DNA from: Pezizomycotina sp. ARF18
Lineage: Eukaryota > Ascomycota
Assembly: GCA_002224055.1 (NCBI GenBank)
Contig: AZLU01000022.1
Span: 248,001 to 312,000, forward strand
DNA: 64,000 nucleotides
Direction of reading: 5' to 3'
Of the stretch, positions 24,401-55,297 are shown piece after piece; position 1 is the stretch's first letter; every line of letters starts with the position of its first letter. Under the pieces are notes generated by a model. It ran no database searches. It saw only the letters and a list, made by a program, of their open reading frames with translations, and was not told the origin of the DNA. The position numbers were made by a program, and so were the translations under genes.

Positions 24401-26008
24401 TATGAATATTCTGACCTACATTTCGATCAAAAATGACAAATTGTACGATTTTGTCCTGTCAATGATCAAAGACGAGGGGGACCCGCTTTAGCTCCTACGC
24501 CCAGCTTGAGAGCTATTCTCACCGCGGCGGAAAACGGGCCGGCCGTATTTCGGAAGTTTTTGCATTCCAACGAAATTACCTCTCAGGTACTCGAAGATGC
24601 CCTGCTCAAGTCCACCTACAGGGACAAGGATCAGAGCGCTTGCTGGAGCCTCGAAACTACCGCAGCGCTCTTACGCCACGGTGCCGATCCCAATGTCGCC
24701 CTGCAGAATATCGTAAAACACGAGGACGGCGCGTATGTCGACGCTCTGGCTCGGTGCTTAGTTAAAGCCGGCGCTACAACTACCGACAAGCCCGATCTGC
24801 TACGCGGCGTAATAGAACGCGGCCGACACTTTCAGGTTCTAGAGCTATTACTGGACGCCGGAGCCGATCTTGAAGCATACGGCGTCGACCTTCTTCTGTC
24901 TGCCGTGCGCGAGAAAAACGTCGCGGCCGCGGCCCTTTTGCTCGACAGGGGTGTGCCCTTGGAAATATACTTTAACAGGCTCACGCCTTTACAAGTTGCC
25001 GCGGGCGCTTCCGAGGGCGACTGTAGGATGATCGAATTTTTGCTGCGTCGAGGGGCCGACATAAACTTCCCGGCGCATCACGAGGGAGGAATGACGGCCC
25101 TGCAGGCCGCGTGCGATTCCGAGGACCTAGTATGTGTAAAGCTTTTGATTAAGCATGGCGCGGATGTAAATGCCGAGCCTGCCGAGCTTAAGGGTATTAC
25201 TGCTCTCGACGGGGCTCTTGGCCCGGGCTATTGCCCTCGACTGACCGAAAAGAGGTGCCAAATATTTCAAACCCTATTAGATCACGGTGCGGATCCCGTC
25301 CAGCGGAGCGGGGACAGAGAAAACCAACTCCTTCTCAGACTTTGTCAAGATGCCGGTTTGGAGCTTTTACGGCAAGTCCTCGAAATCCGCCAGCAAAAGG
25401 GTGCGAATCCAAACGAAGTGTTCTTGGCGAACGTCGGGGACTTTCACGGTAGCGTCCTGCAGTACGCACCGCGAATGGAAAGTTTAAAGGTATTTCAACT
25501 GCTTATAGAGTATGGCGCAGATATCCATTTACCTGCAGTTTCCTATCACGGGGAAACGGCTCTTCAGAGCGCGGCAAGTGAATTAGATTCTTTTCGTATA
25601 GTCAAATACTTGCTCGATCATAACGTGGACGTAAACGAGAAGCCGGCGGTGATCGCAGGTAAAACCGCCATGCACGGCGCCGCTATATGTGGAAGTATCC
25701 CTATCGCCGAGCTTCTATTGGAGAAAGGGGCCGACATTAACGCCGTAGTGGAAGGCAGTATCAATGATTGGCGCGACCCTTTGGAGGCTGCAGTTCATCA
25801 TGGGTCCTTGGATATGGTGTACTGGTTGGTAGAGCATGGCGCGACGGGAGATGTAACGTCCAGCAGTCCTTACGGGAAAGCCATAGAGAACGCGGAGGAA
25901 AAATATTCTGGATACTCTGAAATAGCGAAATACCTCAAGTCTGTTCAGCTCGAAAGAGAGATCGCCCAGCAGGCCAAGGAACTGGCCTCCGCCGTTCAAA
26001 ATGAATAG
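21420..26008 (+). CDS. Clr5-domain ankyrin-repeat protein
   Basis: The start at 21420 opens a Clr5 domain (W..YKQLITDL...L.EVMKLV....GLDAS..QYK....WG), about residues 3-55, known at the N-terminus of many fungal ankyrin proteins and of the fission yeast silencing factor Clr5. A basic linker follows. Three introns keep phase: 21788-22092 (GTAAGT to TTCAG), 22602-22667 (GTGAGT, branch ACTAAT, CAAG) and 23822-24081 (GTGAGG to CTAG). Exon 3 has a helical block (RKELVTELGLILPERNQGE) common in this class. Exon 4 has about ten ankyrin repeats ending in G-A-D-[IVP]-N/H units, the last 500 codons being open to 26008. About five one-base frame changes occur, near 21432, 21595, 22430, 23250 and in the G-run at 24478; the run of C at 23010 may hide another. 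Estimated length about 1,300 residues. Likely role: DNA or chromatin binding via Clr5 with protein binding via ankyrins; inferred. Confidence 0.8.
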
Positions 26009-28045: not shown

Positions 28046-28219
28046 TAATTTGTTGGAGCACCGTGGAGAGGGATCGATCATTGTCTTGATTGATGTAGGA
28101 ACACCATTACCATAGATCATGTATATGCCTTATTGTACATAAATAGGGGAGCTTTCCTCCATCCTTATCCATCAATCAAGACAATGATCGATCCCTCTCC
28201 ACGGTGCTCCAACATAATT
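28046..28219. mobile_element. Palindromic solo LTR with target duplication
   Basis: A 164-bp unit (28051-28214) begins TGTTGGAGCACC and ends GGTGCTCCAACA, flanked by the direct repeat TAATT (28046-28050 and 28215-28219). Its ends are perfect 45-bp inverted repeats (28051-28095 and 28170-28214). The inner 121 bp (28094-28214) is the same LTR as in the Copia element at 48.0-55.3 kb, nearly unmutated. The extra 43 bp on the left is the reverse complement of the LTR's own right end. Confidence 0.85.
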
Positions 28220-48014: not shown

Positions 48015-48136
48015 TGTAGGAACACCATTACCATAGATCATATATATGCCTTATTGTACATAAATAGGGGAGCTTTCCTCCCATCCTTATCCATCAATCA
48101 ACACAATGATCGATCCCTCTCCACGGTGCTCTAACA
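48015..48136 (+). repeat. 5' LTR of the Copia element
   Basis: 122 bp, TG...CA ends, with a TAAATAGGGG promoter-like core and a CT-rich stretch. Matches the 3' LTR and the core of the solo copy at 28094-28214. Confidence 0.9.
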
Positions 48137-51100
48137 GGTTATAAGCCCGGTAGACGTTCTACTACTCTTTAACCGATTATAAGTTACGATATAATCTCTT
48201 AAAATTTTAAATTTAAATTATTAATTACTATCTTATTTTCTTATCTACTAAGCTCCGTCGAGGGGAGCTTAAGTCCGATAGACTAGTTTACTACTTATAT
48301 ATTATAATAATATACTGAGAATAGCTAACGTTTGAGGCTAGTATTAATATATAATCTTACTATCGGGTACTTTAATAGCGCGAGTATATACTTAATTTAG
48401 TAGTTAATTAATAATATTAAATGAAAATTCTAATACCGAGAACGTAGGTATAATAAGCTATAAAATTCTATAAGATTATATATATTACCCTACTATAAAT
48501 CTCTAATTCTAGCTTAACGAGATTATAAAAATTATCGTAATCTTCTAACGATACTAATATAAAATAGAAAATTATATTCGCCGACGGCTCTTCTCGATAA
48601 AATTTAATAGTAAAAAATAGCCGACGATATCGGACGATAATACCGATATACTATTATTTATAGTAATTAATATCTAAGCACGATAAAAGCTTAAAAAAGT
48701 ATAAATATAGCTAAGTAGTACCTATAATAGAAGGGACCTAACGATAAAATAATAATTTATAGCTTATTTTACCTTTATCTATAGACTATAGCTATTAATT
48801 ATTATATATCTCTTAATAATTACGTATATCGATAATATCTTCTAAACTTATAAATTCTTTACCTATTATAAGTATAGGACTATTAAACGCCTTACTACCT
48901 TAAATTACCCGCGCTAGCTCTTAAGTATTAAAGCTATACTTTAATCTATTAACGCCTAGAAATACTTTATTAGTACTACCGTTAAACCTAAACGCTATAT
49001 CGTTAAATATAGGCCGTCTATATCCACTTTAATAATAACGCTAAAGGCGCGTTTTAACCGGTTAAAAACGCTTTAATTATATTAAGATTAACCGACCCAC
49101 ATAAATAGTCTAATATAAGAAGGGTAATAAGGTATAGGGCTTATTTAATAGCTCTCTATCTACCGACTATTAATAACTAATTAATCGAGATATATTAATA
49201 GTTAAGGCTATAACTATTATTAAAAATAAATTTAATACTAGTGCTAATAAGTAGATACGCGTATAACTAATTAATAAGTTCTACGCTATAAAAATATAAA
49301 AGAATAAAGATATTACCGCTTATTATTTTTAATTATAACTTACGCGTTAATAGTTTTATAGAACTATTTAAGATTAACCGATAATAATATTTAATTAAAC
49401 TTTTTAATAGCATAACCTTACTATTTAGCGTATATTATTAGAATATTTTAACTCGCTAGACTAATCGCTTAAAAATACGCTATAGCAGCTATTTTATACT
49501 AAAGCCTAATATAAAAATAATAAATTAATTAGTTAATAATTATTAATATTAAACGCTAAAGCTAACTATATCGCTAGACGTAATAATAAAAATATTAAAC
49601 TCTTATACTCTTACTACTCTAGCCTATTTCTATATAAGAAACGCCTATTTAAAGAATCGATCGACTTTTATTAAATAAATAGACTTAACGATTAGCGTAA
49701 CTACTAGTACTACGGTAGGTATAATATATTAAAAAAAACTATAAAACTAAAATATATAATAATAAACGAAAGTAAAAATTTTATAATAAAAAGCGAGCGT
49801 TATATTATAATGATCGGTAAATAAATAGAATAACGGTTATAAGGTTAAAAATCTATAAAATAGATTAATAATCTTAAAATTAATAATTTATTAACGTACG
49901 TTACGAATTAGAGAGATTTTTATAAGCTAAGTTTAACGGGGCTTCCTTTCTAGAAATCTTAATAACTAAAATATAATTAATAACTATTAACGATAATCTT
50001 TAAATCTTAGACTCGAGCGCGTCGGTATACTTTACTATACGTAGAAATAATCTCTAAAATTACTAATAATTCTTAAAACCTCGCGAAGTACTACTTAGTA
50101 ACGATTACTTATTATTATTACCTAGCTACGGTAATATATAACTTATATTAATATATACTTAAAACGCGTCTAGTAGGTACTAGGTCTCTTTAGACGTCTA
50201 ATCTTAACTAGTAGTCTATATCGATTAGAATATAAAATTATAATAAGCGATAAAATAGAGATAATTAAAGGTATAATAATTATTACGATAGTATAAAATA
50301 TTACTAATAACGGATTATAAGCTATCGTTTATAAGGAACTTTATTTTACCGTTATAAATTAAGTTAAACCGTTAATAATCTTTAATTAAATACCCGCTAT
50401 ATCGATTATAGTAATTGATTAAAAGAAACCCGTATTAATAGCGCTTAGAGCCGCGAGTCTATAAGACTAGTATATACGCCTTAGATACTTTATTACCGCG
50501 TAATCTTATTACTTTTTAAGCGATTATAAATATTAGTATAAGAACTAAGATCTAATAAGATATTATCTTAGTATAAAATCTATTAACGATTAAAAGCGCG
50601 TACCGCTATAAAAAGTAACTATAAAAGCGAGCGCTATTCCCGCTAAAACTAATCTATTTTAATATATATAGCCTAATTACTCTTTTAACGATTAATAAAG
50701 GCGCTTAATACTTTATTATTTTTATCGACGATTATACTTAATAGTATAAGATTAATACTATATAATATAAAATTAAAGTTAAAACTTACTTTAAAGCTTA
50801 TTAATAAAAATAACGGCTTTATAATTAAATAAAGCTAACGGTAAGAAGATATAATACTTTTACGTAGATAATGGCCGCGGAGAGTACGTTAATAAAGATT
50901 TTTAAAAAATACTAACCGATAGTAGTATACGATAGAAACTAAGTCTACTATATTATATATTATTAAACGGCGTCGCTAAGTAAATAGATTAAACGCTATA
51001 TTAGATAGTAATAGCGATACTAATATAATCTAATCTACCGCTAGATTTTAAGGCGAAGTTATTAAGATAGCGACCTATATTTAAAATTAATTATTAATAA

Positions 51101-53899
51101 AAGGTAACGTTAATTATAAATCTTCTTATAAACTATTCTACTATTATAAGCCGACGATTATATATCTTAGACTATTTAGATATAAGACGTATATTTACCT
51201 ACCTAAGTAACGCCGTTATAACGGAAAATTAGTAATTATATACGTATAGCGATTATAATCGGCTACGTTAAACGATTAATATTACTATATAAACTATATA
51301 ATAGACGGGATTTTATTATTACCGATAATATATAGTTTAATAAGAGATCTTTTTCTAGAACGGTAGTATTAGATAAACGATCTTATACTAGATTTTAAAG
51401 AGTACCGACGATTACTAAGAAATTAGTTATATCTATTAATTAAGTTAAATTATTATTAATATAACCTACTAATAAAGCCTCGGGTACTAAATTACTAAGA
51501 AGTAGTAATTGGCTATAGGTCCTAGAGAATAAAGCGTAAAAAGTAAATAATAGGTAATAATAAATAAATTATTACTTAGCCTTTAACGTCTACTACTATC
51601 GATAAAAAATAAAAATCCGTACGTTTAAGCGGTCGTAACGGTACGAAGGCTCTCGCTATTAGTAGAGAAAGCTATAACCTATCTACCGATAGAATCCGGT
51701 TAATTAGTAAGAGTTACGCCTTACTTAGATAATAGATTATAATAGAGTTACTAATAAATATTACCGGTTTAAACTCTTAAATAACGCTATATATAATTAT
51801 TAATTAATTAAACTATTTATAAATAGGCTATATATACTATAATAATCGTATAGCTACTATAAGACTCTTAGTCGCTAAAAAAGCGATAAGTTAAGATAAT
51901 ACTAATCGATAGTTCTTAGCGATAATTAATAAGTTATAATTAATTTAAGATAATAATTATTATAGTATTTAAAGCCTCCCGACGTATATAATAGCGTTAA
52001 AATATAAATAGGTATATATTATTAAACTAGGCGTTATTAATATAAGCTATCGATATAAGATACGGTTAGTTATATATAGAGACTTATAAGAAAATAGGAT
52101 TTAAGACCTACGCCCCGTTACTAAACTAGTTATCTTTTATATACTATTATCGATAGTAGCTACTAATAATATAAAACTTAACGGTATAGATATAATAACG
52201 CCTTTTTATATATACTAACGCCTAACGATTAAAAATCTATATAGAATTTCTTTACTACTATTAACGCCTATTATTAATAATACTATTTATATACGCTATT
52301 AAAACGCGTCGTTAATCGATACGGAATAATAAAAGTATATAGCGCCTTTAAAAGCCTTATATAGCCTTAAGTAGATACTAAAGGTATAAAACGATAAATT
52401 ATAATATATTAATTACGTAGGCTTAAACGATTAGATCTTAATAAAGGTTTATATATTTAATCGATAGCTATTAACGATATCTACTATATATTATTATATA
52501 TAGACGACTTACTTATCGTAACTAAATAATAATTAATTATTTAAGAAATAAAGAAGCTTCTAGTAGTAAAATATTATATAAAAGATCTTAGTAAGATATA
52601 GTAGTTCTTAGATATATAATTTAACGTTATCGATAAAAACAAACGATTATTTTATATTAATTAAATACTATACTCGCTACTTTTAATTAATTTAGTATAA
52701 ACGGTATCGGTTCTATATTAATATTAATATAGAGGGTATACCGTTTACTACCGACGATAGTAAAGCGTTAGACTTAAAAGGTAGCCTCTAGTTTCGCTAA
52801 CTATTAAGCGTATTACTATAGTTTATAATAGCTATAAGACTAGATATTATATACGCTATAACGCGTCTCTTAAAATTTACTACTTTATTAATAACTATAT
52901 ATACTCTCGTATTAAAAACTATATTACATTACCTACTAGGTATATCGCGCCTAGGTATAATTATTACCGCTTAACGATCGAGAGCCTTTAACGGTTATAA
53001 TAATATAGACTTCGCTACAGACCTAATAACCTATAAATTAGTAAAAATATACTATTTTATACTTTAAGGACTAATAAACGACGTTAATAGTCTAATAAGC
53101 TAGCGCTTAAAATAATAGTCGGTTATTATAGTATTAACGATAAATCTAAGTATATTACCGCGAAAGAAGCCGCGAAGAGGCTATCTTTTTTCGCGCGTTA
53201 ATTAGCGTATTAACCATTATTATCCTTAATAATATTATATATTAATAATATAGCTATAATTATACTAACCGTATAATAAAAATTATAATCGAGCTAAGTA
53301 TATCGATATAAAATTTTATTTTATCTACTTTCTTATTAATTAAAAGCTATTATCGATTATATATATCGCCTTAAAAGAGAATATTACTAATATCTTTACT
53401 AAAATACTACCGTTACCTTAATTCGGTTATTTATATACTAAGTTAGATATAATTACGCTAATATCTAACGATAATACTTTTTTCTTACTAGTATAACTTT
53501 TTATAGGGTTTTATATATAAGATTTTAATAAGTTATTTAACAATTAATAACGATATATAGTAATAATATATAATTTTTTTAACTCGCTCCCTAGCTTTTA
53601 TATATTTAACGATCGACTATATTATTTAATAAATTAAGATATTAAAAATTATAAAGTATAAATATAACGGTAGTAATAGTAATAAAGTATATATAAATAA
53701 AGATAAACGACGGAAACGATATAAAAAGCTTTAATCGAGATAAGTATATAATTATAAGCGATAAAAAGTACGATTATCCTTTAAGTATATATTATATATA
53801 AGGAACACGCACGAGTAGAAAAAAGAAAATTAATTAATATTTTTTAAAATTAAATAGAAACGATAAAAAGATTATAGAAAAAAAATACTAGAACTACTA

Positions 53900-54890
53900 T
53901 ATAAGTATTAATAACATATATTAATAATTCAATAATATATATTAATTAAGTAATCAGAATAGAGGGAATAAGATTATTACTATTATCGTTCTTAGGGTTT
54001 TTATAGTTACTACGCCTATTATCTTAAAGGTCTTTCTCATTAGAGGATTCTTCAGCTCGTTATTAATATTTATATTATCGTCTTTATCTAATAGCGGATC
54101 TATATCGCGTTTTTAAGGTTTTATTAGTTTAATACTACGTCTCGATCGCGTCAACGATAGTATAATAATATAAGAAAAGATACCTCTACGATAGTTTTAC
54201 CTATTAAAAGTATAATTATTATACTTATTTATAACGTAAGAGTCTTTATTTTTATAAATAGCCGTTATACGCTAAGCGATTAAAAGTATATATTTATATC
54301 GTTTAAATAGTTTTTACTTTTTATAATAACGTTTATACGGTATATTAGCTCTATAGCCGGTAATAGAGATAAATACGCCTTCCTATAATATAAGTTAATA
54401 TAATCGACTATAATATTAATATTAACGATTATATATAATAAATATAATTAAATAGAGTAGACGATAACTTACTTATACTAAGCGAGCTTTAAGCTTCTAT
54501 TATAATATCTAGACCTATAGAATAGAGAGTATACCCTTTATAAAGCTTAATTAACGGTATTTTACTATTATTATTATAACGGTTAGAATATTTATAACGA
54601 TTAAAAGAGGGATTATAAAAATATAACCTATAGTTACGATACTTAGGGTTATTTATATTACTATTAGACGCTTTACCGTTATCTTCTACTAGTAGTACCT
54701 CTTTATCATTAGTATTAGTCGGTTCCTTCTCTTTACCGCTATTATCTTCCCCTCCCTCCTACGGCCTAGCCTAACGCCTCTTTTTACGCCTATTATTACG
54801 TTATCCGTAGGATCCCGCGTACGCTTAATAGTCTTCTTAGGAGGTATCGTTTAATATAATCGATAAGTAAGAATAGAAAATATAAGAGAA
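53900..54890 (-). other. Antisense coding-like region inside the Copia element
   Basis: Between the end of pol and the 3' LTR, the minus strand has an unusually open stretch of roughly 70 codons (about 54520-54745) in DNA where stop codons are otherwise dense. It is rich in Lys, Glu, Asn and Asp, then Tyr/Asn/Arg. Part of a heavily mutated extra reading frame, or chance. Not joined to any other part. Confidence 0.3.
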
Positions 54891-55178
54891 TCAATAATAA
54901 TATATAATAATAGGAAATTATAGACGGGAAGATATAATTAAGGGAAAGAGAGAGATAAAGCTATAAAATATAGGAGACCCCTTTCTTTATACTATAATCG
55001 TTTACTAGTATCGATAGTTTTTTATTTACTATTTCCTAAGCTATTACTTATATATCTATAAATTATCGATAATTTATATTTTTTTATTCCGTTTTACTAC
55101 GTATACGCGTCGATAAACGCGTCTTAATCGACGCGCGCTTATAATTACAGTATTAGTAATACTGCGCTCGAGTAGAAG

Positions 55179-55297
55179 TATAGGAACACTATTACCATAG
55201 ATTATGTATATGCCTTATTGTATATAAATAGGGGAGCTTTCCTCCATCCTTATCTATCAATCAACACAATGATCGATCCCTCCACGGTGCTCCAACA
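55179..55297 (+). repeat. 3' LTR of the Copia element
   Basis: 119 bp, aligned over its full length with the 5' LTR, followed directly by the ATACC target duplication. A purine-rich stretch (GAGTAGAAG) lies just before it, in the polypurine-tract position. Confidence 0.9.

Follow-up and report, generated by a model that had tools for sequence, protein, structure and literature searches.

Within a 64,000-nt stretch of Pezizomycotina sp. ARF18 DNA (the window), a Copia-type solo LTR carries at its left end an inverted copy of its own right end, and the resulting armed unit is enclosed as a whole by a 5-bp target-site duplication (TSD). This unit is real and was found once. It most likely represents the fossil of an end error in reverse transcription and shows no sign of mobility. 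We assign a probability of about 0.62 to a Copia-type end error followed by normal integration, the fold-back form discussed below included. More specifically, the unit may record in the genome a first-strand transfer that failed: strong-stop DNA would have been captured at the opposite cDNA end, and a molecule with two U5 ends would have been integrated; this version is advanced tentatively and is rated below even odds.

If the strong-stop version is true, errors of first-strand transfer can integrate and leave a readable trace, and the arm marks the R boundary, that is, the transcript start of the element, without RNA data. Counting armed LTRs in many fungal genomes could then make strong-stop errors in vivo a measurable class of error. 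As a one-off, the armed LTR has no evident consequence for the host.

Anatomy of the armed unit

The sequence-only reading had described a 121-bp LTR extended by the inversion of its own right 43 bp, with perfect 45-bp ends and TAATT outside them, and the sequence is as described (Table 1). The 43-bp left arm amounts to 45 bp of pairing when the TG shared with the LTR start (28094-28095) is counted: the arms at 28051-28095 and 28170-28214 are complementary at 45 of 45 positions and lie 74 nt apart. They form the sole close pair outside low-complexity sequence among the 25 longest of 1066 inverted repeats in the window. Folded as single-stranded DNA, the unit reaches -59.6 kcal/mol, compared with a shuffle mean of -16 (z = -16), a value equalled by 0 of 200 shuffles.

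Table 1. Coordinates of the armed unit, its parts and its relatives in the window.
Feature	Position	Strand	Remark
TAATT, left copy of the 5-bp TSD	28046..28050	no strand	read from the sequence
Armed unit	28051-28214		starts TGTTGGAGCACC, ends GGTGCTCCAACA
Extra left arm, 43 bp	28051..28093	-	reverse complement of LTR positions 79-121
Complete 121-bp LTR, TG...CA, solo	28094..28214	+	no PBS after, no PPT before
TATA-like box CATAAATAG	28138..28146	+	LTR positions 45-53; putative role
Inner edge of right arm, putative R (transcription) start	28170..28172	+	LTR positions 77-79
Right arm, end of LTR	28170..28214	+	R-U5 in the proposed reading
TAATT, right copy of the TSD	28215..28219	no strand	read from the sequence
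5' LTR of RIP-like degraded relative (~7.3 kb)	48015..48136	+	PBS GGTTATAAGCCCGG directly after
3' LTR of the same relative	55179..55297	+	

TAATT stands immediately outside both ends of the unit and the arm is thus located inside the TSD; a 5/5 match of the flanks by chance is estimated by us at ~0.1-0.2% at this composition. The 2-base TG overlap reported earlier at the junction of left arm and LTR is real, and 2-3 bases of microhomology are present at both arm junctions. In BLAST comparisons within the window, the stretch 28094-28214 alone corresponds to the two LTRs of the degraded relative (matched at 48015-48136 and 55181-55297), while the first 43-45 bases of the unit match these other LTRs only as their inverted right end. 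No PBS or PPT is found within the unit. The putative R start is situated ~31 bp below the TATA-like box and after a pyrimidine-rich stretch, both of which are suggestive only, and the distance from the box is compatible with other nearby start positions too. No paper of the literature searched showed the fungal start-site consensus considered here.

A variant base distinguishes the armed LTR (AAGACAATG) from the other two LTRs of the window (AACACAATG), and the variant (AAGAC) is found in both arms. It had been taken as a mark of this copy, and hence as a sign that the left arm was copied from the copy's own right arm. Its presence in both arms and the separation of the window's LTRs hold. A private mark of the armed copy was rejected, as AAGAC is common to a further LTR (L003, C12:216075-216196), which has no matching 5-bp flanks. 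The variant is therefore weaker evidence than claimed: self-copying from the armed copy is supported, not proved, and AAGAC in both arms fits all copying models.

Copy number and family of the LTR

The search for further armed copies proposed by the sequence-only reading was run on the whole genome (46.36 Mb, 408 contigs) and yielded a single occurrence. The genome searches gave at least 40 LTR places, drawn from the best 40 of 69 candidates. A 27-base pattern of the U5 terminus, allowing up to 3 mismatches, produced 55 matches (0 for the reversed control), of which 54 fall within LTRs, full or partial, and the last corresponds to the extra left arm. Altogether, 59 LTRs of the family were inspected (46, plus 11 short fetches and two partial right-hand LTRs). 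The inverted arm is absent from all 58 others found in the genome, the flank of 11 of them (L083-L093) having been read over ~20 bases on one side and 50-70 bases on the other side only. Allowing up to 3 mismatches, the junction pattern occurs in the genome as one exact match and two matches with 3 mismatches (L036, L037), and at neither of the latter loci was an LTR match found. This assembly holds no second copy of the insertion site, as both 451-bp flanks match only themselves. With 0/58 other LTRs armed, the normal form is the LTR of 121 bp, and within the reach of the search the arm is a one-off; the converse order, with the armed LTR as the ancestral form, was rejected on the same count. 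No palindromic or armed LTR unit is described in the titles and abstract openings among the matches listed from the open-licence PMC literature.

The 46 LTR places comprise nine 5' LTRs (GGTTAT next), six 3' LTRs (purine tract before) and 31 others. Two of the others (L010 and L039) are probably 3' LTRs, the tract upstream of each resembling a mutated purine tract (PPT). Subtraction of these two and of the armed unit from the 31 places without adjoining PBS or PPT leaves 28 other solos, and in 25 of them an exact 5-bp TSD directly adjoins the short LTR (exceptions: L003, L038 and L044), though L075, which is among the 25, sits in a poly-A run and is little informative; the 11 short fetches are outside this count. 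The LTR is bounded by TG...CA, as in Copia-type LTR retrotransposons, and 10 of 12 bases at its two ends match in inverted orientation.

The PBS of the family begins at the first base after the LTR. Its first 14 bases in two relatives, L048 (see below) and L050 (described in the last section), are complementary to CCGGGCTCATAACC at 14/14 positions, and those of the degraded copy in the window at 13/14. CCGGGCTCATAACC is the spliced anticodon half of an intron-containing tRNA-Met(CAT) gene of the same genome (L096). The tRNA pattern that detected this gene had four matches, two of which were examined: ARAGORN calls L096 as tRNA-Met(CAT) with an intron and L095 as tRNA-Leu(CAG) with an intron, and the two look alike by eye. 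From its sequence, we read L096 as the probable initiator tRNA gene; a pattern for an intronless initiator tRNA has one match in the genome, with one mismatch, and no tRNA was called there.

Of four stretches of the full-length relative L048 (C250:9220-16539, 7.3 kb) that were searched against Pfam, one contains a copia-type gag domain (PF14223, E 1e-7), another shows a zinc knuckle below the Pfam cut-off and two are without matches. RVT_2 (PF07727) was found at C250:12038-12478, in broken frames. Matches to RVT_2 stop ~4.7 kb into the 7.3-kb element, ~2.6 kb short of the end of the 3' LTR, and one stretch beyond them resembles RNase H by eye, without a Pfam match, the remainder being unassigned. 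The earlier assignment of the armed unit to a Copia-type solo LTR is supported by the TG...CA ends, the 5-bp TSD, the relatives with gag and RVT_2, and the lack of an adjoining PBS or PPT.

Copia-superfamily elements such as Ty5 and Drosophila copia are primed at the anticodon half of the initiator tRNA. The present family resembles such anticodon-half-primed elements in its TG...CA LTR, 5-bp TSD, anticodon-half PBS for tRNA-Met(CAT), gag and RVT_2, whereas the armed insertion differs from them as a solo LTR with an extra inverted left arm. Priming by the anticodon half of the initiator tRNA is also described for some fungal Copia elements (PMC10886601). Two other fungal Copia groups are like the family of the armed LTR in host and superfamily and differ in priming: in the account cited, GalEa is described without a PBS and FunCo1 with an internal tRNA-Lys site (PMC5445492). 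Judged by its PBS sequence, of the tRNA-Met anticodon type, the family appears to fit neither, being set apart from both by these published descriptions.

Origin of the left arm

The position of the arm inside the TSD and the location of both junctions at natural ends of LTR cDNA favor an error that preceded integration. The arm's outer end coincides exactly with the LTR terminus, and minus-strand DNA begins at this same point, since the PBS follows the LTR directly. The inner junction of the arm lies exactly at the first bases of U3, and in the established retroviral cycle this is where completed minus-strand DNA ends. The overlap is TG. Reverse transcription supplies all ends of the arm without further assumption. 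The identity of the arms at 45/45 positions, both with AAGAC, is a further point for this reading, as is the TSD outside the arm, where 25/28 other solos have it at the short LTR. The earlier proposal of an aberrant reverse-transcription step before normal integration is accordingly upheld as the best reading. Against it, only one armed copy was found in the genome searched, so that there is no recurrence, and the 10/12 inverted match between the LTR ends would allow a replication switch to return exactly at the LTR edge.

In the course of events that we infer, minus-strand strong-stop DNA would join the end of the minus strand 3' to 3', and extension of both 3' ends would rebuild the left cDNA end as a second U5 terminus. 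Integrase would then insert both U5-type termini into the target, giving rise to the 5-bp duplication, and recombination between the LTRs would remove the interior to leave the armed solo LTR, unless the molecule consisted of the LTR only from the start. The left arm, read 5' to 3', would be minus-strand strong-stop DNA, provided that R starts at LTR positions 77-79. A partial parallel exists in HIV-1, for which abortive strong-stop DNA products are reported in vitro; intra- or intermolecular annealing of 3' ends is suspected in their formation, in one case possibly within U5, and earlier work cited in the same report indicates that HIV-1 reverse transcriptase can switch on 2 nt of complementarity (PMC4668388). 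Misplaced 3'-end annealing and extension would be common to both systems, but the HIV-1 products are abortive and were obtained in vitro, whereas the product proposed for the armed LTR would have been integrated and kept in the genome (PMC4668388).

The same product would arise in an alternative form, in which the end of the minus strand folds back onto its own 5' end. Here, the CA of the 3' end (...CCTACA) would pair with a TG located in the U5 of the same strand, and copying would proceed to the 5' end of that strand. This fold-back in cis is counted within the probability given above, as it is still a pre-integration error of reverse transcription for which the R start is irrelevant, but taken separately it is unlikely. 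It is nearly equivalent to the strong-stop joint, from which it is distinguished only by the factor that determines arm length, and accounts equally for the exact ends, the 2-nt overlap and the identical arms. However, it would then be fortuitous that the arm ends at the likely R start, and in full-length cDNA the 3' end would have to find a 5' end that is separated from it by 7 kb of sequence, while fold-back into the nearer LTR would copy PBS sequence too, none of which is seen in the armed unit.

Outside reverse transcription, the main rival is a template switch during host replication after integration, which we likewise consider unlikely. A nascent strand would snap back at the edge of a normal solo LTR, copy 43 bases and return through the 10/12 match between the LTR ends. 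Perfect inverted repeats are documented as frequent products of short-range template-switch mutations, including in great apes (PMC7954356), and the inverted match of the LTR ends as well as the microhomology at both junctions suit this explanation. On the other hand, such switches take place while host DNA is replicated, and one would not expect them to keep to the borders of LTR and TSD as the armed unit does. Two-jump events were enumerated on 16 real unarmed solos; 2 matching bases were required for the switch and 3 for the return, the copied length was 20-80, and the return had to fall no more than 2 bases from the point of the switch. The 16 come from a list of 18 solos, from which L019 and L024 were left out because their stored interval does not start with TG and end with CA. 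Both junctions exactly at the LTR edges are rare among the events enumerated (163/349,924). Because uniform weights are unfair to models with long return homology, a second count is given for events whose return has at least 10/12 matches, and 153 of these 2,556 (6%) give both exact junctions, a share that is not negligible because the LTR ends themselves match at 10/12 inverted bases.

Inverted chimaeras are a known artefact of sequencing libraries, and an assembly or library artefact at the palindrome could produce a false arm. It is nevertheless improbable here: one chimaeric switch alone would leave the left flank unrestored, the boundary with the LTR is exact and the TSD lies outside the arm. 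Furthermore, the 451-bp flanks are unique, and the contig is 321 kb long, with the site ~45 kb from its closer end. Two LTR copies joined as an inverted dimer that then lost ~78 bp internally would also leave the initial 43-45 bases of an inverted LTR beside a complete one. This origin is very improbable, as two events would be required and the deletion would have to stop precisely at the TG of the second LTR; in addition, there is no duplication between the two parts and no inverted neighbor beside the 58 other LTRs (read with short flanks for 11 of them). The suggestion that the unit resembles a MITE and might be able to move or spread, which its terminal inverted repeats and TSD had invited, is barely credible and was rejected as an active family on copy number, given that one copy was found, that its ends are those of a Copia-type LTR and not of a DNA transposon, and that it is a solo with no PBS or PPT, whereas retrotransposon integrase acts on cDNA.

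Inversions that accompany reverse transcription are known from LINE-1, in which twin priming, a second priming event during reverse transcription, yields an inverted 5' part. In contrast to the armed LTR, that process is target-primed and involves neither an integrase nor an LTR.

Irregular insertions and neighboring features

Two further insertions of the family depart from the regular form. L050 (C3:34465-34905) is a 441-bp insertion with the TSD CTCAG, in which an LTR is followed by a PBS, ~220 bp and a second LTR that begins at position 23; it is a miniature, TRIM-like derivative whose second LTR lacks the first 22 bases. L049 (C293:17690-18041, 352 bp) resembles it and ends at the right with LTR positions 93-121 only, between the flanks ATCTA and TTCTA (4/5 match). 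Irregular insertions of this Copia-type family therefore exist and were counted in favor of a reverse-transcription error, although plain deletions can explain both cases too. At C14:260967-263138, an insertion of ~2.2 kb carries two LTRs of the family (L073, L074) and the TSD CTTGC; it is much shorter than the copies of 7.3 kb and is probably non-autonomous.

The window's own copy (48015-55297) is strongly RIP-like, with a (CpA+TpG)/(ApC+GpT) ratio of 0.05 and a GC content of 0.25; RIP-like composition suggests a filamentous ascomycete. The armed unit, ~20 kb away, is without such bias, though it is short. Upstream of the armed unit, a 500-aa open frame at 24506-26008 encodes ankyrin repeats (Pfam Ank, E 9.7e-40).
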